Shown: piece by piece, positions 4,069 to 48,182 of the stretch | How positions within the stretch are numbered: the first letter of the stretch is position 1 | Layout of the letters: every line of letters begins with the position of its first letter | Assembly (NCBI GenBank): GCA_012034655.1 | Contig: JAAUOZ010000001.1 | Span: forward strand, 1-64,000 | Source: Leptolyngbyaceae cyanobacterium CSU_1_3 | GTDB lineage: Bacteria > Cyanobacteriota > Cyanobacteriia > Leptolyngbyales > Leptolyngbyaceae | Length of the DNA stretch: 64,000 nucleotides | Direction: 5' to 3' | Translations under genes and position numbers: made by a program | Notes under the pieces: generated by a model | What the model was told of the DNA's origin: nothing | What the model saw: the letters and a program-made list of their open reading frames with translations, nothing else | Databases searched by the model: none

Positions 4069-6711
4069 ATGACAACTACACCGAACTACGGTGCTCTGCT
4101 CCAAAGCTTTTGGACACCGCCGACAACTTCTATTGCAGAAAACCCTGATTCAACGAGCAATAGCCCCTCTGAACCAACCGATATCATTGAATTCTTGGGA
4201 GAAGACTTGCTCTGGCAGCAAACCATTCCTGCACAAGAGCCAGATTTAAAGGAAATTCCTGCTGATTTGCCGACTGAATTGGTTGAGGCTCTTCATGCTC
4301 AGGGGATTCACCAGTTCTACTCCCATCAACTCAAGGCTTTGCAAGCCATTCGTGCAGGCAAGAGTCTGATTCTCACCTCTCCCACTGCCAGCGGCAAGAC
4401 ACTCAGTATCTACCCCGGCATTTTGGAAGGTTGCATGAATGAAGGGTACCGGGCATTGGCATTTTATGGACTCCGTGCACTAGCGCTGGATCAGTTTCAT
4501 AAAATCTCGGAGTTGCTCTCAGCAATGCCTGCTGTCTCCCGCCCTCGTTTGGCAATGATGACAGGGGATGTCAAGACCGAAGAACGAGAGCAAATTCTCG
4601 CGTCCGATCCCCACATTCTGGGAGTCACGCCAGAACTGATTCATTTTCAACTCAAGCAAGCTTGGAAATCGGAGCGTTGGGCAACCTTCTATCAGCAATT
4701 GCGCTACGTGCTGATCGACGAGGCACATACCCTTTCAGGTAGCTATGGAGCCAATATGGCTTGGCTGATCCGTCGCCTTCGGCTAGCAGTGGATCACTAT
4801 GGCGGTCGCTCTAGAGATCTGCAATTCATCTTTCTGAGTGCAACCTGTGGCAACCCGAAACAGCTTGCCCGGAAGCTGGCGGGACTGAAGCCAACTAAAC
4901 GTAATCCAAAACCTCTCATTTGGATTCATAGGAGCGGAGCTGCGGCACCCCATCGCCAAGTGGTTGTGACTCAATCCAGCTACAACCTGACTGCGGATAC
5001 AGCCCGTGTTATTCAGTTCTTGTTAGCTCAGGGGAAGTCCGGGATTGCCTTTTGCAACTCGCGCCGGAGTGTCAGGGATCTAACAGGATTGCTGAAGTCA
5101 AACCAGGTGGCTGCTTTCTATGGCGGCATCAGTTCAGAGCGTCGCGCTGAGGTGGTTCAACAACTCCAGTCCGGTATCATTCAATGGATTATTGCGACGG
5201 AAGCCTTAGAAGCTGGCATTGACCTACCTGAGCTAGAGTGCTGTGTTCTACGGGGATGGCCCGGCTCCAAGATGGCATATCAGCAGCGCAGTGGTCGAGC
5301 CGGACGTGTCAAACCGGGAATGACAGTGCTGATTCCCAATGCTCTTAATCCGATCGATCGCTACATCACAGAGCATCCAGAACTGTTGATCTCTGGTGAA
5401 GCTGAAGACGTTTTCTTTAATGACGAATATCCTATCTTTGCGGCTAAACATCTTCTCTGTGCCGCAGCAGAAACGGGCATTCCCACCAGCAAAATCAAGC
5501 ATTACTTTGGTAGTTCTGCGATCGAGGTTGTAAAGCTTCTAATGGCTCAGGGGCACCTCAACAAAGGGCGTAATGGGTTGTGGGCGCGGGGCTACCCGCA
5601 TAAAGATGTCAACTTTCGGGGAGGTGTGTCTCAAACGACCGTCAAACTGGTGGATGCTGAGTCGGGCGAAGCACTGGAGGAAGTGTCGGAGGACATTGCC
5701 CATCGGGAAGTGCATCCCCATGCTATCTATAAACGGCAAGATGGCGACGGACAAATGTTGACCTATCAGTGCATCTCGCTCGACTTGACCACTAAGCAGG
5801 CAATTCTGAAACAAGTGCCGGAAAGTCCCCTGTTCACGGTTGCCTTCACTCAGTCGGAAACCAGCAGCCTGAAGGCTTTAACCAATCCGGTCGCATTGCC
5901 TTTAGAATTTCCCCGTGCGGAGGGGATTGCTGATTTACCTGTCGTTCTAACGCTTGAACTCAGCTATGGGCAAATCAGCCATATCACCAGCGGGTACAGT
6001 TTGATGACACAGATCTATGAACAGACCTGTCTGAACCGACGGTGTTTGAACTACAAGGAGCCATTACCAGACGAGCGCCGTTGCCCGCTGTGCAGCAAGC
6101 CAACCCGCAAGGCACTGATTGTCAAAACCCTGTCTGAGGAAAGTTTTGAGCAGCCTTATCGCACTCAGTTTTCAGCCCCTATTGTCAAAGTGGCGATCGA
6201 CTCCACGGCCCAAGACTATCTCCAAACCTTTGCCAGGGAAGCAAGAACTAGCTTGAGTCGCAGTGGGCAGCCAATTCCACCCGGCTATCAGCAACTATGG
6301 GAGCATCCCAGTAGCCTGATCGCCATACATAGCTTTGGGCATCAAATCCTGCGATCGCTCCAACTATTTGCCAGAGTTGACCCCAGAGAGGTGAATTTTT
6401 CGGTGGTTAAGGAAGCTGGCGATCGCAACCACTACGCAGGCTATTTCTACGACACCAGCGACGGCGGAAATGGGGCTTCTGAAGCCGTGTTTAAACATAT
6501 AGCTGAACTTGCGAGTGTGGCGGCTGCGATCGCTCGTGGCTGTGATTGTGATGCAGGTTGCGCCAAGTGCTTGATTCAACATGGTTGTCCCGATGGCAAC
6601 ACGGCGTTGCTGAAGCAACTGGGGTTGGTTTTATTGGATGCGTTGGCAGAGCCTCTGGTTGAGAGAAACGCTTTACCCACCGCACAGACTGAGGCAGAAA
6701 TTAGCCCGTAA
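4069..6711 (+). CDS. DEAH-box helicase with C-terminal Cys cluster (MrfA/YprA type)
   Basis: An 880-residue superfamily 2 helicase. Walker A is SPTASGKT at 104-111, DEAH at 217-220, motif III is LSAT, and the C-terminal RecA lobe carries [12 protein letters not shown] and QQRSGRAGR. The C-terminal region is DUF1998/MZB-like with [10 protein letters not shown] at 825-834, the four-cysteine metal site seen in MrfA. A second cysteine group (CLNRRC... CPLCSKP) lies near residues 650-680. MrfA-type enzymes are 3'-5' DNA helicases implicated in mitomycin repair, and related ones occur in defence loci. The ATG at 4069 is the natural start. The recA-like gene follows 79 nt downstream, suggesting a shared repair or recombination unit. 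Confidence 0.85.
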
Positions 6712-6790
6712 TCAACTGATCAACCGTCAGCTATCGCTGCACATCCACCGATCTTCAGAAATGGAGGTCGGTTGTTCATTTTTAAGAACG

Positions 6791-7669
6791 ATGGCTAACA
6801 AACTGGTAAGCAAGAAATCGGATCTAGAGCAGACCCTATCAACGATCAACCGGGAATTTGGCAATGGTTCCATTATGCGCCTGGGGGATGCCAGTCATAT
6901 GAACGTGAAAACCTTCTCCAGTGGCTCAACTGACCTGGATGTGGCATTGGGTGGAGGCTATCCCAGAGGACGAATTATCGAAATTTATGGACCAGAGAGT
7001 AGCGGCAAGACCACACTGGCGTTACAGGCGATCGCTCAAATGCAAAAGCTCGGAGGTATTGCCGCCTTTGTCGATATGGAACACGCCCTCGATCCACTCT
7101 ATGTCGCTACGATCGGAGCTGATATCGACCAAATGCTGGTCAGTCAACCTAATAGCGGTGAGATGGCAATGGAACTTGTTGAACAACTGGTGCGTTCCAA
7201 GAGTGTTGATCTGATTGTGGTGGACTCCGTGGCTGCATTGGTTACAGAGGCAGAACTTCAAGCCGATATGGGCGATTTTCCAACGACTTCCATTGCCTGG
7301 TTGATGAGCAAGTCCCTTCGACGCTTGATGAACTGCCTGCACAGTCAATGCACCGTGATTTTTCTAAATCAACTGCGTTTCAAGATTGGTGTAGTTTACG
7401 GTAATCCTGAAACAACCACAGGTGGAAATGCGCTCAAATACTACGCTTCAATGCGGTTGGATACTCGCCGGATTCAGACATTGAAGCGAGGGAGTGAAGA
7501 ATACGGCATTCGGGTCAAGGTCAAAGTGGCGAAGAACAAGATTGCCCCACCCTTTCGAGCGGCAGAAGTTGACATGATCTTTGGCAAAGGCATCTTCAAT
7601 GGCGATGCTCTCAATGAGCTTGCTGCAACCAACGGGCAAGTAGATAGCGATTTGCTGCTGTGTCGCTAA
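6791..7669 (+). CDS. RecA-like recombinase, C-terminally short paralogue
   Basis: The RecA core is clear: Walker A GPESSGKT at 67-74, the [11 protein letters not shown] Walker B strand, a DNA-binding loop 1 region with [10 protein letters not shown], and loop 2 ending in [16 protein letters not shown]. The first frame-compatible start is far upstream inside the helicase gene, but alignment to the RecA N-terminus ([14 protein letters not shown], then [11 protein letters not shown]) fixes ATG 6791, giving 292 residues. Chromosomal RecA is about 350 residues; this one stops just after the FGKGI segment and so lacks most of the C-terminal domain. It is likely a plasmid-borne paralogue used in element repair, replication or transfer. 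No LexA-type box was recognised upstream. Confidence 0.85.
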
Positions 7670-16487: not shown

Positions 16488-17225
16488 GTGGATAACAACG
16501 CTCCAGCCAACTGGCTGTTTGTAAGGACATTCCTACAGGAGGCTTGCGCTGTGGATCAACTGAGTTTTATTCCCGAAGAGTTGGTGCGAACCCTTCAACA
16601 AGAGAAAGATGCTGCCAACCCAGTCACCCGTTGCTCATCCAGCACCCTGGAAATGTTGCGGCTTTTAGCATCCCTTGATGTTCCTAGAGAACTACTAGCG
16701 TGCATGTTGGAGATGGCAGAGTTTTCCATCCATCATGTCCGTTATTTAGTGGGACCCTTGGTATTGCACCGCAGTTTGTGGGGTGATGTCATTCCAAGTT
16801 GGTTAAAGGTTGCCTGTGTAAAAGATCGCTTTGATCTCATCCTTTCTGAATATGAGCAGGATCAAGTGGGGGACTATGCTACACCGACTGAAGTATTGGC
16901 TTACATGATGCCTGCCAGTTTTGAAGCACCCATGCATCGCGACTACTCTGACCTCTACATCTGGGCTGGAAATGAGGTGATGCGGAAGCATAACAAATTA
17001 CCCGAAGGAGCTGACAGTTTTTATGAGTTGATTGGTGGGCATCCGATTGAATTCAGCACAGTCAAAAATGATTTTCAAGATTTGAGTCGATCGATTCGTC
17101 GGAGCGTTGTGAAACATGCGGCTCAACAGGGGTGGGGAAAACGGCGCAATCGGGCAAAGGCAGAAGCGATCGCAGTTGATCCAGCTCAAGTATCCGATCA
17201 GCCAGAACAGGTCAGTTTGTTCTGA
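16488..17225 (+). CDS. Unknown 245-aa protein upstream of PolA
   Basis: A mostly helical soluble protein starting at GTG 16488 (no ATG is available before the conserved-looking sequence begins). The C-terminus is basic (RSIRRSVVKHAAQQGWGKRRNRAKAEA), then ends in a short DQPEQVSLF tail; the xxLF ending recurs in other proteins of this element (41836 ends QISLF, the PAPS-like protein ends QLTLFVP). Such QxSLF-type tails resemble sliding-clamp-binding peptides, which would fit a gene immediately upstream of a DNA polymerase. That role is inference. Confidence 0.55.
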   Translation: MDNNAPANWLFVRTFLQEACAVDQLSFIPEELVRTLQQEKDAANPVTRCSSSTLEMLRLLASLDVPRELLACMLEMAEFSIHHVRYLVGPLVLHRSLWGDVIPSWLKVACVKDRFDLILSEYEQDQVGDYATPTEVLAYMMPASFEAPMHRDYSDLYIWAGNEVMRKHNKLPEGADSFYELIGGHPIEFSTVKNDFQDLSRSIRRSVVKHAAQQGWGKRRNRAKAEAIAVDPAQVSDQPEQVSLF

Positions 17226-17228
17226 ATC

Positions 17229-17441
17229 ATGAGCAATACCGGAGATGGTTGGTGCTACCGCCCCTGCAAGCTAGTCCTCCATCCATTTCCGATTATGCCT
17301 GCCTCCCAAACTCACCCTCATTTGAAAGCTGGAACCTATCAACTGATTACGTCGGGGAAAGAACTTGAATCGGCACTGTGTTGGTGTAACCCCTTAAGAG
17401 AATCGCTAAAAACAGCCTCCCACGATTGGATTGGATTGTGA
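17229..17441 (+). CDS. N-terminal extension of the PolA-like protein (frameshifted)
   Basis: A 70-residue frame. From about residue 24 it reads as the usual lead-in of 3'-5' exonuclease domains (TYQLITSGKELESALCW... SHDWIGL), which should be followed directly by the D-x-E motif found in the next frame as LDCETTGLDP. The junction lies in a GATTG-repeat tract around 17422-17436, so a change in repeat number would explain the shift. The start may be ATG 17229, immediately after the preceding stop, or ATG 17295. It should be read as part of the polymerase. Confidence 0.55.
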   Translation: MSNTGDGWCYRPCKLVLHPFPIMPASQTHPHLKAGTYQLITSGKELESALCWCNPLRESLKTASHDWIGL

Positions 17442-19104
17442 GACAACAGGGTTAGATCCTCATATTCATACGATTCGGCTCATTCAGCTTGCAGTCCCGG
17501 ATCAGCCAGTGATGCTCATTGATTTACCTCAGATTGCTCCTTGCGATCGCCACCCACTTCAACAGATCCTCTCCAGCCCTGTGATCAAAATTACCCACAA
17601 TGGCAAATTCGACTGGCAGTTCCTTGCCCAAGCAGGACTCCAACCCGCGCCACCCTTCTTCGATACACAAATTGCTTATCGTGTGTTGACGGCAGGACTG
17701 AAAACCAGTCTCTCGTTGCAGACGCTTGCTCAAAAGCTATTGAATATAGCGCTGGATAAAACCCAACAGGTCAGTGATTGGAGCCAGCCCCTAACTTCAA
17801 AACAGTTACAGTACGCGGCGTTGGATGCAGCAATTTTGTTAGAACTGTACCCGATCTTGTTCAAGAAGCTGGAGCGATCGCAGCTTCTCAAAATTGCCCA
17901 ACTAGAGTTTCACTGTATGCCTGCGGTGGCTCAGATGGAGCTGAATGGGATGTTGCTTGATCTTTCTCGCTGGCATACGTTAGGGGCAAAGCTGGAGAGC
18001 GATCGGGATGCGGCACTTCATCAGCTTAGCCAACTCCGGATCGCTGGTAACGCTCAAATGTCTTTGCTGCCGGAGATGACGGATACAATTAACCCAAATT
18101 CCCACCAGCAGGTACTTGCAGCACTGCAAGCGGCTGGAATTCCAGTAAACTCTACCAATCAAAAGGCGCTGGTTCCCCTAGCGAAACAGTATCCTGTGAT
18201 CCGAGCGTTATTGGACTACCGCCACCTTTCTAAAATCACTGCTACTTTTGCCGATAGCCTGCCCAAGCACGTTCATCCGGTGACAGGCAGGATTCACCCG
18301 ACTTACTATCAGCTTGGAGCCAGGTCGGGTCGGTTCTCTTGTCGTAACCCGCCTCTACAAACGATTCCTCGCGATGCCGCAACCCGAACCTGTTTTGTCG
18401 CTGCACCAGGTTATCAAATCGTGCGAGCGGACTATTCTCAAATTGAGCTGCGAATTGTTGCCCGCTTGAGTGGAGATACCCGGATGCAACGAGCCTATCG
18501 TAAGGGTGAGGATCTGCATCGGCTGACAGCAGCTTTTGTGACGGGGAAAGCGATCGACGCGGTGAGTGAGGAAGATCGACGGCTTGCCAAAGCCATTAAC
18601 TTTGGGCTGATCTATGGTATGGGTGCTGCCAAGCTTCAGAGCTATGCTGAGACCAAGTATGGAGTTACTCTGTCGTTGGAGGAGGCAAAAGCATTCCGAA
18701 AACGGTTCTTTGAAGCTTACGCCGGAGTGGCAGAGTGGCATGAGACGATCAAGCGTAGTTACATCCGGGGCATAAAGGAGAGCCGTACCTTGGCAGGACG
18801 GCGACGCAGGTGGGCAGATAAACCCAGGCTGGCAGAGATGCTGAACCATCCAGTCCAGGGATTGAATGCTGACATCACGAAGCTAGCGTTAGTGAAACTC
18901 AACAAAGTACTGCCAGAGACAGGAGCAAAGCTAATTTGCACAGTTCATGATGAGATCCTGCTTGAGTGTCCTGTTGCTGAGGCAAAATACATCAGTGATC
19001 TCTTACATCGCGGCATGGTTGCAGCAGCTCGGAAGTTTCTGCATCCTATTCCAGTGGTCGTGGATGTCAAGGTTTCCACCAGCTGGGGTGGCGATGAGGC
19101 TTAG
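17431..19104 (+). CDS. Family A DNA polymerase (exonuclease plus polymerase, no 5' nuclease)
   Basis: 557 residues. 3'-5' exonuclease motifs: D2/E4 in DCETTG, ITHNGKFDWQFL, and YAALDAAI. Polymerase motif A RADYSQIELR (Asp334), motif B RRLAKAINFGLIYG, and motif C VHDE (Asp507). All catalytic residues are present, so it should both polymerise and proofread. At about 600 aa with its N-terminal extension and no 5' nuclease, it is the short type common in phages and plasmids, not chromosomal Pol I. With the primase at 29543 and the helicase and RecA genes it may give the element partly independent replication. The TTG at 17431 is an artefact of the frameshift. Confidence 0.9.
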   Translation: MDCETTGLDPHIHTIRLIQLAVPDQPVMLIDLPQIAPCDRHPLQQILSSPVIKITHNGKFDWQFLAQAGLQPAPPFFDTQIAYRVLTAGLKTSLSLQTLAQKLLNIALDKTQQVSDWSQPLTSKQLQYAALDAAILLELYPILFKKLERSQLLKIAQLEFHCMPAVAQMELNGMLLDLSRWHTLGAKLESDRDAALHQLSQLRIAGNAQMSLLPEMTDTINPNSHQQVLAALQAAGIPVNSTNQKALVPLAKQYPVIRALLDYRHLSKITATFADSLPKHVHPVTGRIHPTYYQLGARSGRFSCRNPPLQTIPRDAATRTCFVAAPGYQIVRADYSQIELRIVARLSGDTRMQRAYRKGEDLHRLTAAFVTGKAIDAVSEEDRRLAKAINFGLIYGMGAAKLQSYAETKYGVTLSLEEAKAFRKRFFEAYAGVAEWHETIKRSYIRGIKESRTLAGRRRRWADKPRLAEMLNHPVQGLNADITKLALVKLNKVLPETGAKLICTVHDEILLECPVAEAKYISDLLHRGMVAAARKFLHPIPVVVDVKVSTSWGGDEA

Positions 19105-38596: not shown

Positions 38597-39697
38597 ATGA
38601 CTCCTCAATTGCATCTGCTTAATTGGGGCATGGGAGTCGAGAGCACAGCAATCCTCGTGCGTTGGCTGCTGGAGCCTCAGTCTCGTCCCTTCAATGACTT
38701 CCACAATCTGATTGTGCTAGCCGCGCAAACTGGTGATGAGATGAATGAAACCAAATACCTTTGTGAAACTCATCTCTTTCCAGTAATGCGGGAACACCAA
38801 GTTCGATTGGTGCAGGTTGCCAAAGCCTCTGCCAGTAAACTGGATGGCTACATCATTCTCAGTGATACTCGCCAGCCCTATGAGCTGCACACCGAAGGAT
38901 ACTTTCCCCTCAGCCGTGATTTACTCCAGTCTGGAACGGTGCCTCGGTTGGGGCGACCTCATATCTGTGCCCAACGCTGGAAGGGAGAGGTGCTTGATGC
39001 CTGGATCTCAGACCACATCACAGAAGCCTTTGGTCCCTATTTGGGCTACAACGCCGATGAAATCAAGCGGGCTGGTAAGGCTGACGGCTATACCTGCCAG
39101 GGACACCAGTTTCTCTATCCGCTCATCGAATGGGGATGGACAAGAGACGACTGCACTGAATATCTCTATCGCACTCTGGGAGTTCTTTGGAGAAAATCAG
39201 CTTGTAGCTATTGCCCGTTTCAACAAAAGCAAGCTGCGATCGCTCGCTACGATCGTGATCCCAAAGCCGCAGGATTCACGCTGCTGATGGAAATGAACGC
39301 CCTAGCGTTTAACCCCCGAATGCACTTATTCTCATCAGGCACTGCTTACGACCTGATAGCAAAAAGTGGTAATCAGGCTGCCTTTGATGAATTAGAGCAG
39401 CTATTACAGCAATTACAGTGGGCAATCTATCACGTGCAACGCACTTACAAACAATTGATTGGGAAGAATGGCAAGCCCTACGTCAACTCCGATCGCAACG
39501 TGGTTCTCGTTGATGAAGGCAAGAAAGCTCAGATGGAATCTAAGTTAGAAGTGATTTGCCAACGTCATCATGCCCCAATAGAAAACCTGTACGGCAAAAG
39601 ATGTTATCGCTATCAACGGCAAGAAGGCGTTTATCCAGCTTTCGAGGAATTTTATGTCGTTGCTCCCAAGCTGGCAAAAACAAATGCCGTAACCTGA
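38597..39697 (+). CDS. PAPS reductase-like PP-loop protein, 3' end frameshifted
   Basis: 366 residues. N-terminal PP-loop-type motif NWGMGVESTAILVRWLL (SGGxxS-like) and AAQTGDEMNETKYL; CSYCPFQ near 205-211 resembles a metal or redox cysteine pair found in DndC-like and PAPS-reductase-like mobile-element proteins. Such proteins activate sulfur or adenylate substrates. The frame ends NAVT at 39697, but the next frame continues CRNLKAFEQNWRELTGPAKP to VQLTLFVP and stops at 39771. Restoring one A in the A5 run at 39676-39680 joins them, so the true end is probably 39771. It may work with the DpdA-like gene at 40224 in nucleic-acid modification; this is inference. Confidence 0.65.
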   Translation: MTPQLHLLNWGMGVESTAILVRWLLEPQSRPFNDFHNLIVLAAQTGDEMNETKYLCETHLFPVMREHQVRLVQVAKASASKLDGYIILSDTRQPYELHTEGYFPLSRDLLQSGTVPRLGRPHICAQRWKGEVLDAWISDHITEAFGPYLGYNADEIKRAGKADGYTCQGHQFLYPLIEWGWTRDDCTEYLYRTLGVLWRKSACSYCPFQQKQAAIARYDRDPKAAGFTLLMEMNALAFNPRMHLFSSGTAYDLIAKSGNQAAFDELEQLLQQLQWAIYHVQRTYKQLIGKNGKPYVNSDRNVVLVDEGKKAQMESKLEVICQRHHAPIENLYGKRCYRYQRQEGVYPAFEEFYVVAPKLAKTNAVT

Positions 39698-39891
39698 AAG
39701 CCTTTGAGCAAAATTGGAGAGAACTGACAGGACCCGCTAAACCTGTTCAATTGACTCTCTTTGTTCCCTAACCCAAGCATAGACAAGATAGCTGCGATCT
39801 CGATAGAGCTTCCGCTCCAGACAATGTAGGCGGGCTGACAACCTTAAGCAGGTTTACATGCCCTCGCCTGTTCACCAACATGGAGCGGTCT

Positions 39892-41835: not shown

Positions 41836-42480
41836 ATGAAATGGCTCACACCAGAAGAAGCGATCGCCGCCGCAAACTTAACAGCGACGGCAGCTAAATT
41901 GGACGCGATCGCCAAAAGTACTAATGGCAAAAAGACGGCTGAAGAACGCTTTCATTCTCTTGGGTTGTTGTTCGATCGAGAGCGGTACGAAGCAGGGCAA
42001 CCTGACTTTTTGAAACTCTTGAATTCGGCAACTGACGAAGAAGAACAAACTGATGAAGAGGATTTAGAAGCAGCTTCTGTCGATGAGGAATCCTCAAACT
42101 CTACATCCCCTACTCAGCCAGAATCAGAACCCTATATTTTCGAGCAGTGTAAAGTTCAGGTTGTGATTACTCTGTTGCCCAACACAGGGCAACCAGGAGG
42201 TAGACCTGTGTTGTTAGCTGCCAGCAGTCATGGTGATTTTCCCATTGTGGCAATGCTGAACCAGGAAGAATTGGGTTCACTTCCATCAGCGATCGCCCAA
42301 CTGCTAGACGACTTGAAAGCTGATTTTCCCAACCGCCAAATTCGTCGTAACATCGCTCAGACTCAACCTGCCAAAACCTTTCCTCAACGAACAATACAGC
42401 CTCAAACCCCAACGAGCAAAGCCGGTTCTACCACCCCTAAACCGAGCAGCAATAGTCAAACCCAAATCTCATTGTTCTAA
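41836..42480 (+). CDS. Probable PRTRC system protein E-type gene
   Basis: 214 residues. N-terminal helix, an acidic linker (ATDEEEQTDEEDLEAASVDEE), a compact domain at about 100-170 (CKVQVVITLLPNTGQPGGRPVLLAAS... LPSAIAQLLDDLKADFPNR) and a Pro/Thr/Ser tail ending QISLF. Position as first gene of the E-C-F-B-A-ThiF order and the central beta-helix pattern support PRTRC E, but I could not match the family confidently. The QxSLF ending could be a clamp-binding peptide. Confidence 0.45.
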   Translation: MKWLTPEEAIAAANLTATAAKLDAIAKSTNGKKTAEERFHSLGLLFDRERYEAGQPDFLKLLNSATDEEEQTDEEDLEAASVDEESSNSTSPTQPESEPYIFEQCKVQVVITLLPNTGQPGGRPVLLAASSHGDFPIVAMLNQEELGSLPSAIAQLLDDLKADFPNRQIRRNIAQTQPAKTFPQRTIQPQTPTSKAGSTTPKPSSNSQTQISLF

Positions 42481-42485
42481 TTGCC

Positions 42486-42923
42486 ATGACCACCAGCACA
42501 ACTAACAAACGACTTGTCATCTACGAAGGTCAGCAACACTGGCTACCGGACGCGATCGCCCTTGACGATCAACTTCTGCGCGATGCCTTCACTCCCCTCT
42601 GTGCCGAACTAGCAAACGCAGAAATTGAACGCAAAGAAGGAGAACCCATTCGTATTATCAAAAAGCCGGGTCGAAAGGGTATTTCCCCCCTGGAATCTCT
42701 AATAGCTGCACCTGAAGAGGTAAATCCATCCGTGCAAATGTGTTACCAACTGCGGCAACATCAGCTAATGAATGGAATTGACTGGAGAAATGCAGAACAA
42801 TGGGCAGCGCAAATTGAGGAAGCGATCGCCGCCGGTACAACATTCACACAAGCAGTCAATCATTCATTGAAAGCCCTAACTTCTTGTAAGCCAGCCTCTA
42901 GCAGCATTCCTGAAGGATTTTAG
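42486..42923 (+). CDS. PRTRC system protein C (ubiquitin-like)
   Basis: 145 residues. The first 60 match PRTRC C: RLVIYEGQQHWLPDAIALDD, then an acidic helix, then IRIIKKPGRKG, the usual phrase before the family's closing G-x-K-G. Protein C overlaps the prokaryotic ubiquitin-like (Prok_Ub) family, a beta-grasp fold. Here the domain is followed by an 85-residue extension (SPLESLIAAPEEVNPSVQM...), absent from short relatives. The gene lies 5 nt after the E-like gene and 2 nt before the next. Confidence 0.65.
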   Translation: MTTSTTNKRLVIYEGQQHWLPDAIALDDQLLRDAFTPLCAELANAEIERKEGEPIRIIKKPGRKGISPLESLIAAPEEVNPSVQMCYQLRQHQLMNGIDWRNAEQWAAQIEEAIAAGTTFTQAVNHSLKALTSCKPASSSIPEGF

Positions 42924-42925
42924 CC

Positions 42926-43777
42926 ATGAGTCTTGTCCCCAGCACTCCAGCGGAAGCAATCTACAGCCTCCGGCAGTGCCAGTTAACAATCACTCCGCTT
43001 AAAGCCCTCGACTATCTGGAAGTTCAACTCAACACTTATCAACTGCTGGCACTCTACCAGCACTTTTTCTCATCTGAATGGTCAACTAGCCAGACTTCTC
43101 TTTATCTGCCTGTTAATCATGAAGGCAACTCTAAAACAGTTTCCTCAGAAAATCGCCATAGCCCAAGAGAATTGGAGTTTATCACCCTGGTTTATACTCA
43201 CCTGTTCCCAATGTCATTTTGGGCGGTGGAAAGCGCTCAAGAAGAACGCCTTCAGGCTATCCCCATCACTTCAATGGGCGTAGATTGGCAAATTGAGGAG
43301 GGAATTGAAAATTTGAGGATGGGATGGAAACTGCTGCTTCCGCTCAGTAAAGAAGGTCGGTATTGGTTAGATGATGTAGAACCGGAAGGTGGCGAATGGT
43401 TTGACAGTGAATTTGAAACTCATCACGTTTCTTACAAACATATCCATCATCCCGATCGCATCGACAACAAACGGTTGAGGCGACTTTGTTGTGAACTCAC
43501 TACACCCTTACAGTTTCTACCTCTGGCATTGAAACTGCTGGATCATGAAACTGAAAATCTCTGGCTGGATGAGTCTCCAGACGAGATGAACTACGGGCTG
43601 TACGCCTCCTCTCTACCCTGGTCCAAATCATCTATCAATTTCCTGCACCGGAAATGGAAACAAGCCAGCCGGATTTTGGATGCTGCATACCTGTTAATTG
43701 AGTGGTTGGAAACTGATATGAAAACTCACGCACAACTTCTACTACAGCTATGGACACGCGCAATGAAACGAATCTAG
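42926..43777 (+). CDS. Probable PRTRC system protein F
   Basis: 283 residues, soluble. The order within the cassette (after C, before B) fits protein F. Visible features: an N-terminal helix-strand unit (ALDYLEVQLNTYQLLALYQHFF), a TLVYTHLFPMSFWAVESAQ segment and an aromatic C-terminus (KQASRILDAAYLLIEWLETD). I do not recall enough of the family to confirm by motif. The end overlaps the start of the protein B gene by 28 nt, so translation of the two is probably coupled. Confidence 0.5.
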   Translation: MSLVPSTPAEAIYSLRQCQLTITPLKALDYLEVQLNTYQLLALYQHFFSSEWSTSQTSLYLPVNHEGNSKTVSSENRHSPRELEFITLVYTHLFPMSFWAVESAQEERLQAIPITSMGVDWQIEEGIENLRMGWKLLLPLSKEGRYWLDDVEPEGGEWFDSEFETHHVSYKHIHHPDRIDNKRLRRLCCELTTPLQFLPLALKLLDHETENLWLDESPDEMNYGLYASSLPWSKSSINFLHRKWKQASRILDAAYLLIEWLETDMKTHAQLLLQLWTRAMKRI

Positions 43778-44505
43778 CAGCTTTATCCAACCCTATTCTC
43801 TCCAGTGAAATCATCCAAGCAGTTCTCGCTGATCCTCCCAGAAAATCTTCTGCCATTCAAGCCGAATTGCTGTTTCTGGATGGCTATTACATCTTCCATA
43901 GACGGGATAAAAATGCACCAGCCACTGACATTTACAAATGTCTTTCCCCAACTGCACTCCGAGCCGCTTTTAGTCACGAACCCATTGATACTGGATGGAT
44001 GCAGCCTGGTATCGTTCGTTATGGCACTGGAAGTACAGGCACTTACCTGATCAAATTTATCCCTCCGGCTACCCATCTACTCAACTGTGACGAGGTTGAA
44101 ACTATAAAAATTCCGCTGCCTGCAATGGTCTTCATGGGAATTGAGACGAAATATTGGGTTTGGACGCTCAAAGACAAAATATTCGATCCCAAAGCATTTG
44201 CATTTCATACTCCACTACCTAATATCTACAATTCAGGACAGGTTTGTTGGGGTGTTAACGAACCTCCTGATGCCAGCCCTCAAACCATCGATCTAGCCTG
44301 GAATCTTTTCATTTCCAGCCTCTTCACAAATCACTTGGCTACAGGGAAATCAAAATCTCATTCGGGTGATGTGCGGCAACAGCTTCTGAAACTGCATCAG
44401 CAAGGTAAGCGTTCCACGTATCCAGCGTCTGACTTGATGCCTATCGGCAACAAAAAAAGTGTCGATGCACTTGTGCAGGAAATTTTAGATGAACGAAACT
44501 ACTAA
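43750..44505 (+). CDS. PRTRC system protein B (E2-like)
   Basis: 251 residues. YIFHRRDKNAPATDIYKCLSP, WMQPGIVRYGTGSTGTYLIKFIPPATH and TPLPNIYNSGQVCWGVNEPP are characteristic. Protein B overlaps the prokaryotic E2 family D. The phrase LPNIYNSGQVCWG resembles the E2 segment HPNxxxxGxxCL, and Cys166 occupies the catalytic position. C-terminal part: SGDVRQQLLKLHQQGKRSTYPASDLMP. It overlaps both flanking genes (28 nt and 17 nt), so the cassette is a single translational unit. Confidence 0.8.
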   Translation: MDTRNETNLAALSNPILSSEIIQAVLADPPRKSSAIQAELLFLDGYYIFHRRDKNAPATDIYKCLSPTALRAAFSHEPIDTGWMQPGIVRYGTGSTGTYLIKFIPPATHLLNCDEVETIKIPLPAMVFMGIETKYWVWTLKDKIFDPKAFAFHTPLPNIYNSGQVCWGVNEPPDASPQTIDLAWNLFISSLFTNHLATGKSKSHSGDVRQQLLKLHQQGKRSTYPASDLMPIGNKKSVDALVQEILDERNY

Positions 44506-45178
44506 ACCACTGATCGGTTATGCAACTGCGGCTGATTCCCTCCCTGATTCAGGCAGCGCTCTCACCTACCTTCTGGCTGGTAATGGCGTTTTTGCCAGCG
44601 CCGCTCGTCCCGGCATCAAAGTTCTCATGCCTGTCTGTCTGAGCGATCAGCGGATCAAAGGGCTATCTCACCTGGCTCCTCATCTCACCATCACACCCCG
44701 AATTCCCAAAGAACTTTTGCTAGAAGTGTGGCGATCGAGTTGTAATGCCTGCACTGAATCCAATGCAGAAATATTATTTCATTTCCACAAACAAGACACT
44801 GAATGGAAATTACAAACACCGGAGCAAACCCAAAACACAACCAGTTGTCAACCTACAGAATCAGGCAGTTACTCTTCTCATTATCACGCTGTCGTAGAGG
44901 TCCATTCTCATGCAACCATGCCTGCATTCTTCTCCAACACAGATAATGCAGACGAAACAGGCTTCCGAATCTATGGCGTATTAGCTCGGGTGAATACAAC
45001 CAAACCAGAAATTCAAATGCGCGTCGGGCTATTTCAGCATTGCTGGAATATTCCGGCAAAAACCGTGTTTGATATTGAGTCTGACTTTTTCATGACTGAT
45101 GTTTCAGTCCTGTCTGAATGTCAGTTCTACAGTACAGACTTGCCACCTGCAAATGTGTTGGAGAACTTATGGAACTAA
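44489..45178 (+). CDS. PRTRC system protein A (JAMM/MPN metalloprotease)
   Basis: 229 residues. The JAMM zinc motif is complete: Glu137, His139 and His141 in EVHSH, then seven residues, Ser149 and Asp152 (HSHATMPAFFSNTD). The following ETGFRIYGVLARV segment is typical of PRTRC A. JAMM enzymes remove ubiquitin-like tails, so it may process the protein C gene product. ATG 44489 is within the end of protein B, and its own end overlaps the ThiF gene by 10 nt. Confidence 0.85.
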   Translation: MNETTKPLIGYATAADSLPDSGSALTYLLAGNGVFASAARPGIKVLMPVCLSDQRIKGLSHLAPHLTITPRIPKELLLEVWRSSCNACTESNAEILFHFHKQDTEWKLQTPEQTQNTTSCQPTESGSYSSHYHAVVEVHSHATMPAFFSNTDNADETGFRIYGVLARVNTTKPEIQMRVGLFQHCWNIPAKTVFDIESDFFMTDVSVLSECQFYSTDLPPANVLENLWN

Positions 45179-45987
45179 ATCTTGATCTGGCAAACGCCTC
45201 TCCTATTCTGACGATTGACTATACCGCGATCGAACTTTGGCTAGTGGGATGTGGCGGAACAGGTTCTTGGCTAGCTCCATCCATTGTTCGTTTGGGTAGA
45301 GTTCTGTCCAGTAAAGGGAAGAAGGTCAAACTCTACTTCGTTGACCCAGACCACGTTGAAGAAGCCAATGTATTACGCCAGTGTTTCTGTGATGCAGAGA
45401 TCGGGTTGAACAAAGCCAAAACATTGGCACTCCGCTATGCGATCGCCTGGAAAATGGAAGTAGGCGCGATCGCCCAACCCTTTGATCCCGATTGGGTCAC
45501 TCCTGGCTACAACACTCTTGCCCTAGTTGCTGGCTGTGTTGATAATGCCAGAGCCAGACAATCGATCGCCCAAGTATTGGAAAATAATAATCACCAAATC
45601 GTCCCTCACACATGGTATCTGGACTGTGGCAATTCTCGCCGGAGTGGACAGGTTTTATTAGGCTCCCAACTTTCCACTAAACCCGACGATTATCAGTTCA
45701 ACACGTTGGGATGCTTTCGGCTCCCTGCCCCAACCATTCAGCAACCCGACCTGTTGGTTCCACAACCAGAAGAAATGGAGAGCAATACCCTCTCCTGCGA
45801 ACAGCTTGCTCTGCTGAACAGCCAATCCCTCAGCATTAATCAGCGTGTCGCGGCTGAAGCATTTGACTATCTACTGCAACTAACCACTGGCAGGCTACGA
45901 CGGTTCGCCACCTATTTTGATTTAGAAAGTGGGAGTGGGCGATCGCTCTACACGACCCAAGCCAGTGTCATTCAAGCAATCCATTAA
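45169..45987 (+). CDS. PRTRC system ThiF family protein (E1-like)
   Basis: 272 residues from ATG 45169 (GGAG upstream); a start at 45118 adds unrelated residues. Nucleotide-binding loop LVGCGGTGSW at 25-34, the acidic strand YFVDPDHVEEANVLRQCF, and GLNKAKTLALRYA are ThiF/E1 signatures. A CGNSRRSGQVLLG segment near 155-168 could supply the catalytic Cys. It would adenylate a ubiquitin-like partner, probably protein C. Last gene of the cassette, ending 50 nt before the convergent response-regulator gene. Confidence 0.85.
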   Translation: MELNLDLANASPILTIDYTAIELWLVGCGGTGSWLAPSIVRLGRVLSSKGKKVKLYFVDPDHVEEANVLRQCFCDAEIGLNKAKTLALRYAIAWKMEVGAIAQPFDPDWVTPGYNTLALVAGCVDNARARQSIAQVLENNNHQIVPHTWYLDCGNSRRSGQVLLGSQLSTKPDDYQFNTLGCFRLPAPTIQQPDLLVPQPEEMESNTLSCEQLALLNSQSLSINQRVAAEAFDYLLQLTTGRLRRFATYFDLESGSGRSLYTTQASVIQAIH

Positions 45988-47040: not shown

Positions 47041-47331
47041 ATGCTCTCAAAACCTTTAAACCCAACCATCAGTTTTGCTTCATCTGGAGCAAAACGCATT
47101 CTGCTGGTGAATGCCATCCCTAATATCTTTCGTTCCATGCGATCGCTGCTCAGGAAACGGGGGTATCAGGTAGACAGCGCCTATAGCGGAGTAGACGCAC
47201 TGATTCAGCTTGAACAGTCTCCACCTGACTTATTACTGCTAGATACTGCCATTGCTGATATAGACGGTTACGAAGTGACCCGACGAATTCGACGGAATGC
47301 TGAACTGCCCTTTTCCCAATCATGTTGGTAG
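47041..47331 (+). CDS. Receiver domain, N-terminal part of a REC-histidine kinase
   Basis: 96-residue frame. RILLVNAIPNIFRSMRSLLRKRGYQVDSAYSGVDAL is a receiver domain, with the phosphorylatable Asp in LLLLDTAIADIDGYEV. The acidic pair normally found after the first strand (DD) is replaced by NA, so magnesium binding may be weak. After LPF the frame ends in a spurious SQSCW. The next frame continues with PIMLVADHN, the fourth strand and later elements. One missing C at 47315-47317 explains the break; the ATG at 47322 is internal. Confidence 0.65.
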   Translation: MLSKPLNPTISFASSGAKRILLVNAIPNIFRSMRSLLRKRGYQVDSAYSGVDALIQLEQSPPDLLLLDTAIADIDGYEVTRRIRRNAELPFSQSCW

Positions 47332-48182
47332 CCGATCATAATCATACCAGTGTGATTAAGGGCTTGGCCTTGGGTGCAAATGATGTCATCCGCCCTACGG
47401 TGAAAAAGGGAGAGCTATTTGCCAGAATTCAGTCGATGTTAAAACTGAAACACAGTATCGATGAGCAAATCAGAATTAATCAACAGCATGAAGACTTCAT
47501 TGCTAGCCTGACTCACGATCTACGAACCCCGCTTATTGCAGCAGATCATATGCTGCATTTACTACGTCGAGGTACTTTTGGTAAAACATTGCCCGAAATG
47601 CGGGATTCTTTAGAACAAGTTGTTCAGAGCAACCAAACTCTATTGGAAATGGTTGATACTCTGCTGGAAATCTATCAATATGAGGCAGGTTGTAAAGATC
47701 TTTACTTTTATAAGGTTGACCTCTGGGAATTAAGCCAAAGTGTTGTTAGAGAACTAACTCCTCTGGCTATGACTAAAGGCTTGGCGTTGAACCTAACCTT
47801 AGTAGGAGCCACTGACCAAACATCCTTGTGGGTGAGGGGCGATCGCTTGGAGCTTCGCCGCTTACTGACTAACTTGATCGGTAATGCCATTCGCTATACC
47901 GATGCTGGCTTAGTGGAGCTTCGCCTACAATATATGACCTGTGATTCTTCAGAAAATAGTTCTATCATCTTGGAAGTAGAAGATACAGGAATTGGTATCG
48001 CTCCAGAGGAGCAGGAGTTTCTGTTTGAGCGATTTAGACAGGGGAATCATCAACGTCGAGGAAATGGGCTGGGTCTTTATTTATCTCATCAAATCGTGGA
48101 AGCTCATCATGGAAACATCCACATTAAATCTGAGGTTGGCAAAGGAAGCTTGTTTACTATCCAAATACCAATCTTAGTTTGA
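47322..48182 (+). CDS. Histidine kinase (C-terminal part of REC-HisKA-HATPase protein)
   Basis: 286 residues. The last third of the receiver domain (MLVADHNHTSVIKGLALGANDVIRP) leads into HisKA with the phospho-accepting His in ASLTHDLRTPL, then HATPase motifs: N box LLTNLIGNAIRYT, G1 box VEDTGIGIAPEEQ, and G2 GNGLGLYLSHQIVEAHHG. No transmembrane segment, so it is a cytoplasmic sensor. With the N-terminal frame (47041-47331) the protein would be about 380 aa. Divergent from the LuxR-type regulator gene, its probable partner. Confidence 0.8.
   Translation: MLVADHNHTSVIKGLALGANDVIRPTVKKGELFARIQSMLKLKHSIDEQIRINQQHEDFIASLTHDLRTPLIAADHMLHLLRRGTFGKTLPEMRDSLEQVVQSNQTLLEMVDTLLEIYQYEAGCKDLYFYKVDLWELSQSVVRELTPLAMTKGLALNLTLVGATDQTSLWVRGDRLELRRLLTNLIGNAIRYTDAGLVELRLQYMTCDSSENSSIILEVEDTGIGIAPEEQEFLFERFRQGNHQRRGNGLGLYLSHQIVEAHHGNIHIKSEVGKGSLFTIQIPILV

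Follow-up and report, generated by a model that had tools for sequence, protein, structure and literature searches.

The PRTRC cassette (TIGR03734–TIGR03738) is a plasmid gene set that has long had a name and no function, and our literature search, with subscription papers and preprints outside its range, found no paper on what it does. Its ubiquitin-like set was predicted in 2006 by Iyer et al. as operon type 6d (row 6d of their Table 1), cyanobacterial members included, two cyanobacteria being already present in the organism list for this type (PMC1779556). The same authors noted the conserved C-terminal glycine of the ubiquitin-like protein (Ubl) of type 6d operons and proposed, for other operons, that JAB proteins release Ubl moieties (PMC1779556). 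The Bil, Bub and CBASS Cap2/Cap3 systems likewise hold an E1-like protein, an E2-like protein, a Ubl or conjugation target and a JAMM-type peptidase in one operon, and the ThiS/ThiF and MoaD/MoeB pairs also employ E1-like adenylation of the C-terminal glycine of a small beta-grasp protein. Here we analyse the operon at positions 41836–45987 of a 64,000-nucleotide stretch of DNA (the window; contig JAAUOZ010000001.1, positions 1 to 64,000) from Leptolyngbyaceae cyanobacterium CSU_1_3. Its sequence suggests a Ubl-conjugation pathway, encoded on a plasmid, which could well be docked on the DNA sliding clamp.

The six open reading frames (ORFs) of the operon are tightly packed or overlapping, carry the catalytic residues of a Ubl/E1/E2/JAMM set and follow the order E-C-F-B-A-ThiF, which recurs in relatives and here lies on a mobile element (Table 1). 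The locus has gene set, order, catalytic residues and plasmid location in common with the PRTRC cassette. It differs in the absence of an adjoining PRTRC ParB gene, in the 80-amino acid extension of protein C and in the canonical clamp motif of protein E, and because its recognised members (A, B and ThiF) all score under the NCBIfam PRTRC cut-offs, we consider it a divergent cyanobacterial branch of PRTRC. Compared with Bil, Bub and CBASS, its E1- and E2-like proteins are separate and differently built, proteins E and F are additional, and the association is with replication genes rather than defence genes; unlike ThiS/ThiF and MoaD/MoeB, it has E2-like and JAMM proteins, and biosynthetic neighbours were not seen. 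An original prediction, made from the sequence, had described a single overlapping operon holding a full ubiquitin-like set, known by name but without a known role or target. The operon structure was confirmed, although proteins E and F, which lie within the same range, had gone unnamed; the role is indeed undescribed, whereas the set itself had already been predicted in 2006 (PMC1779556). Two features which that prediction missed, the clamp-binding tail of E and the apparent precursor nature of C, bear most on role and target; both appear to be new, as does the recurrence of a dnaN gene upstream of E/C. As far as we could check, neither the link to the clamp nor the co-variation of A with the tail of C has been described before.

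Conservation of the catalytic residues was assessed in loci taken from plasmids, genomes and IMG/VR. Protein A (TIGR03735, 65 bits against a cut-off of 102; Prok-JAB PF14464, 6e-6) carries the perfect JAMM motif that had been predicted, its five positions (Glu94, His139, His141, Ser149 and Asp152) being kept in 65 of 65 proteins. ThiF (TIGR03736, 134.6 bits against a cut-off of 145; PF00899), which most likely starts at the ATG at 45169 rather than at the first ATG of its frame at 45118, has the expected E1-type nucleotide loop: the GxGGxG glycines, together with Asp59, Asn67, an Arg, a Gln, Lys82, Asp125 and Cys210, are conserved in 126–127 of 127 proteins. Its PDB matches comprise E1 enzymes, Cap2 and BubCD, and also Escherichia coli ThiF.

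The E2-like motif with Cys166 claimed for protein B was also borne out. B matches Prok-E2_D (PF14460, 5.9e-26) and, below the cut-off of 131, TIGR03737 (60 bits); Pro155, Asn158 and Cys166 are the only invariant columns among 75 aligned B proteins, and Asn158 and Cys166 are kept in 131/131, with the N-to-C spacing of eight seen in E2s. The same spacing occurs in UBE2D2 (HPN...C85), UBE2N and UBC9. The His of HPN is missing here, as was already remarked in 2006 (PMC1779556). When the window's B was compared with PDB sequences, the best five matches were E2 R1/R2 enzymes, weak (E 0.018–0.094) and aligned at the active site; a B profile searched against PDB sequences found nothing. With hhalign, three B alignments matched those E2s in the same active-site region at 38–62%, and two mismatched controls reached 0.4–0.8%. 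In the AlphaFold2 model of B (pLDDT 86.3, pTM 0.75), a strand-rich core is followed by the active-site loop and then by helices. The catalytic-residue patterns of the set lie far beyond chance. ThiF and B probably serve as the E1 and E2 of the pathway, although for B the E2 fold has support from sequence and not from structure.

Protein C consists of a 65-amino acid Ubl-like domain followed by an 80-amino acid helical extension, so it is not a free Ubl. In Pfam and NCBIfam profile searches it gave no direct match to the Prok_Ub or PRTRC_C models. A profile alignment of 17 cyanobacterial C proteins with 18 PRTRC C proteins from other phyla reached 92.7% (E 4.3e-7, residues 8–66; hhalign), and in an alignment of 76 C proteins, cyanobacterial and other (A9), 45 match Prok_Ub and 46 match PRTRC_C. 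The PRTRC membership of protein C is based on the profile-profile comparison and on operon position, and the Prok_Ub pattern originally read in it held as a profile-profile match to PRTRC C but not as a direct match to either model. The structure model (pLDDT 75, pTM 0.40) has the order E-E-H-E-E and then helices.

Gly65 is present in 130 of 132 C proteins, one of the remaining two having Ala and the other being truncated. Its equivalent is the last residue in most non-cyanobacterial relatives, and relatives without A terminate exactly there. In Oscillatoriales and Pseudanabaena the extension after Gly65 has a gene of its own, the Ubl gene ending 0–2 codons past the Gly. Among 117 cassettes, 58 have both A and a tail on C, 55 have neither, 4 have A without a tail and none has a tail without A. 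Whole plasmid records without A came from Vibrio, Tunicatimonas, Pseudomonas fulva, Marinobacter, Shewanella and Thiodictyon. A Chroococcidiopsis cassette that had looked A-less proved to have A at another place on its plasmid.

Natural evidence on the role of the JAMM protein is provided by three Planktothrix strains, in which A has been deleted and only a C-terminal remnant is left; A was found neither in two whole Planktothrix genomes nor on the P. agardhii plasmid. C from these A-less strains ends GSKG-stop (GGATGA), where relatives with A read GGAGTAAAATAA, two residues more. Two of these strains, P. paucivesiculata and P. agardhii, keep B and ThiF whole, and the third, Planktothrix PCC 11201, has broken F and ThiF genes. 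On Rubrobacter and Planococcus plasmids the JAMM protein carries an N-terminal fusion to a Ubl-like segment, with KKG or PKG at the junction (read by eye). Since relatives without A end at the Gly, no tail occurs without A, and loss of A in Planktothrix goes with a stop after the Gly, A most likely serves as the protease that matures C, a role that we predict for it with high confidence.

Further observations were made on protein C. On IMG/VR contigs L100, L102, L103, L105–L113 and L115–L121, which hold similar PRTRC cassettes, C tails of 61–100 amino acids with a different sequence follow an unchanged GTKG. Protein C is hit by C3a152, a PADLOC model labelled 'Type III-C specific' (3.2e-11), so that a Ubl protein of PRTRC has apparently entered the catalogue as an accessory of CRISPR type III, perhaps through neighbouring genes such as those in Anabaena (L010). 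In a Nodularia metagenome-assembled genome, E and C are fused in one frame (L060:8377–9177) and the C-terminal half of E, with the clamp motif, is lost. The PxGF C-terminus of full-length C, considered as the conjugated end, was dropped as it is absent from every short C protein.

Protein E ends in QISLF, and QL[S/D]LF or QxxLF is an established bacterial clamp-binding motif (PMC12309361, PMC4549789). All intact cyanobacterial E proteins except those of Pseudanabaena carry QxxLF or a close variant at their end, as does one relative from IMG/VR (L080), the forms being QISLF, QLTLF, QLSLF, QLKLF, QLNLF and QRSLF. Gln210, Leu213 and Phe214 are the sole invariant columns in 15 cyanobacterial E proteins, which are 14–57% identical to that of the window. 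Of the other ORFs of at least 100 amino acids in the loci, 9 of approximately 1,320 have the motif once two that are E themselves are set aside; several of the nine are long conserved plasmid proteins. E tails ending in [LM]F were found in 10 of the 17 non-cyanobacterial loci with dnaN upstream versus 4 of the 64 others (p 7e-6, a value that ignores relatedness). Judging from its tail, E is likely to bind the sliding clamp.

A second clamp-binding motif is present on the element, as a 245-amino acid ORF without family match (16488–17225) ends in QVSLF. Two relatives (L045 and L047) encode one 391-amino acid protein ending QLTLFVP or QLDLFVP, the counterpart of window 38597–39771, a gene which looks frameshifted, with its end in another frame (39556–39771).

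The gene for the clamp itself, dnaN, precedes E/C in the same orientation in 18 of 127 cassettes, often 0–33 bp from E, and each of ten DnaN proteins tested has two or three DNA_pol3_beta domains (Pfam). Because at least 11 changes fall on the tree, dnaN must have joined the cassette or been lost repeatedly. The order is dnaN-E-C-x-F-B-A-ThiF in Azospira and rad52-dnaN-x-x-B-UblA-ThiF in Planococcus. In other relatives a PRTRC ParB gene lies directly upstream of E, where dnaN sits elsewhere, and in relatives annotated as PRTRC ParB is sometimes replaced by dnaN or absent. ParB is a CTP-dependent clamp on DNA, and ParB and DnaN are both ring- or clamp-like proteins on DNA. PRTRC ParB is absent from the head of the cassette analysed here, the best match in its own genome reaching 104 bits against a cut-off of 279. 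This genome has a chromosomal dnaN and a divergent copy (C41:30227–31723; L183:8228–9724) with a long N-terminal extension, located beside helicase/primase-type genes.

The model that we favour builds on features seen in the sequences, namely the conserved catalytic positions and Gly65, the way in which A and the tail of C vary together, the invariant QxxLF and the recurrent dnaN; its reactions, the binding of E to the clamp and the target are what we propose on that footing. JAMM protein A would cleave precursor C after Gly65, freeing the 80-amino acid extension and exposing a single C-terminal Gly, which would be adenylated by ThiF and then held as a thioester at Cys210, before the Ubl is handed to Cys166 of the E2-like B. 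Through its QISLF tail, protein E would tether either this machinery or its target to DnaN, the beta clamp, and the Ubl would be joined to DnaN itself or to one of the element's replication or repair proteins that sit on it. Taking the tag off again may be a further task of A. We see about an even chance that the target is the clamp or something on it. Such a pathway would work like the modification of eukaryotic PCNA by ubiquitin and SUMO, in that a short motif brings a Ubl pathway to the clamp, although the clamp here is bacterial DnaN, its modification is only a proposal, and we claim no relation by descent. More tentative is the analogy taken to its full extent, with the Ubl attached to DnaN or to proteins on DnaN and E acting as a clamp-docking E3-like factor, which we consider possible but rather doubtful. 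If the target does lie at the clamp, eukaryotes would not be the only organisms in which replication factors are modified by a Ubl. The tail of E together with the recurrent dnaN proposes a concrete site of action for the cassette.

Several observations weigh against this model. The Foldseek search with the confident model of B returned no E2 among the best 50 of 186 PDB matches. The E2 fold of B, on which the original prediction depended, is pointed to by sequence but not by this structure search; the catalytic residues of the predicted Ubl/E1/E2/JAMM set are kept in about 130 relatives across phyla. The best PDB fold matches of C include ubiquitin, ubiquilin and bacterial Ubl chains (prob 0.5–0.7), and none is significant. 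A and the tail undergo five changes each on the ThiF tree, which leaves their link on few independent events, and an independent-pairs test was not significant, with three supported pairs concordant or not differing and none opposed; these tree tests left out L036, L059, L063, L077 and L102, in which ThiF is broken or fused, C is shortened or the ORF start is wrong. Outside cyanobacteria, the tail of E is in many cases acidic and lacks the motif, and homology of the non-cyanobacterial with the cyanobacterial E proteins could not be demonstrated. Finally, most relatives have no dnaN nearby, and no dnaN lies on the contig of the window, the second, divergent dnaN of the genome being on contig C41.

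The same conjugation pathway could instead act on the partition or segregation apparatus (ParB and others), with the motif of E only positioning the machinery at replicating DNA. This would suit the classical cassette, which starts with PRTRC ParB directly upstream of E, and a ParB-like gene is found just past the window, outside the operon (C29:64555–64860). However, that gene is far under the PRTRC_parB cut-off (93 against 279 bits), no ParB adjoins E here, and a ParB target would leave the invariant QxxLF unexplained; we regard this target as unlikely. We give a similarly low probability to a role in anti-phage or anti-plasmid defence, or in counter-defence, in which invader proteins would be tagged as by Bil, Bub or CBASS Cap2. 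The enzyme set does resemble those of known defence conjugation systems, ThiF matches Cap2/BubCD structures and PADLOC E1-E2 models, and CBASS genes (a DncV-like cyclase and a SAVED protein) lie directly downstream of the Oscillatoria nigro-viridis cassette (L005:8376–11573), but the usual neighbours in the loci read are dnaN, prim-pol, Gp157, ParB and relaxase rather than defence genes, B, A, E and F fit no PADLOC model, and the clamp motif would again have no explanation.

A sulfur-carrier pathway of the ThiS/MoaD type, in which ThiF would turn the C-terminal Gly of C into a thiocarboxylate for the modification of tRNA or of a small molecule, with B no true E2, could account for the single Gly at the end of C, the match of ThiF to its E. 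coli namesake in the PDB and the lack of an E2 among the best 50 of 186 structural matches of B. It seems improbable to us, given that the invariant PxxN-x7-C of B has E2 spacing, that its best PDB sequence matches are E2 enzymes, and that the loci read showed no biosynthetic genes around the cassette. Protein E might also be a separate clamp-binding protein, for example a replication brake or copy-number factor, which merely shares the operon while the Ubl pathway acts elsewhere; unrelated plasmid proteins do end in clamp motifs, such as the QVSLF of window ORF 16488–17225. Against this, E constantly adjoins C across phyla and operon partners usually cooperate, and we judge a separate role for E to have little likelihood.

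Table 1 Features of the operon, of the element and of two related loci. Positions refer to the window unless a locus is named.
Feature	Position	Strand	Remarks
Protein E (PRTRC E position)	41836–42480	+	214 aa, C-terminal half low-complexity; ORF directly upstream of C; without family match
Protein E, C-terminal QISLF (residues 210–214)	42463–42477	+	Beta-sliding-clamp-binding motif QxxLF; E alignment and consensus in PMC12309361, PMC4549789
Protein C, whole ORF	42486–42923	+	
Protein C, residues 1–65, ubiquitin-like (PRTRC C/Prok_Ub-related), ending Gly65	42486–42680	+	hhalign, Gly65 conservation, fold search
Protein C, residues 66–145, helical extension ending IPEGF	42681–42920	+	Encoded by its own gene in Oscillatoria, Planktothrix and Pseudanabaena relatives
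Protein F (PRTRC F position), no function assigned	42926–43777	+	Operon position and homologues in relatives
Protein B, E2-like (Prok-E2_D)	43750–44505	+	PF14460; TIGR03737 under cut-off
Protein B, E2-type active-site motif PLPNIYNSGQVC (P155–C166)	44212–44247	+	Invariant columns of B alignment
Protein A, JAMM metallopeptidase (PRTRC A)	44489–45178	+	TIGR03735, PF14464
Protein A, JAMM motif H139-S-H141-x7-S149-x2-D152	44903–44944	+	Glu94 codon 44768–44770; residue conservation
ThiF-family E1-like protein	45169–45987	+	TIGR03736, PF00899, PDB matches; frame opens 45118
ThiF, GxGGxG nucleotide loop	45247–45264	+	Residue conservation
ThiF, Cys210, candidate E1 thioester cysteine	45796–45798	+	Invariant 127/127
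RecA, plasmid-borne	6638–7669		
Family A DNA polymerase with 3'-5' exonuclease domain	17431–19104		
Ubl-JAMM fusion ORF	L017:5950–6960		Rubrobacter
Ubl-JAMM fusion ORF	L018:6207–6932		Planococcus

The element around the operon is plasmid-like, as the original prediction had it, with a type IV secretion system coupling protein, a NikA-like protein, a relaxase, RecA and a family A DNA polymerase. No close nucleotide match was found in plasmid DNA. Relatives of B occur on 42 plasmid records, nearly all of them cyanobacterial and 24 typed as conjugative, but in only 10 of the 386 cyanobacterial genomes sampled, and relatives of PRTRC ThiF on up to 242 plasmid records from many phyla, on at least 80 IMG/VR contigs and on a few phage records. 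A hybrid response regulator/histidine kinase that a single gene encodes at the same place in Nostoc (L004) is divided between two frames at 47041–48182 of the window.

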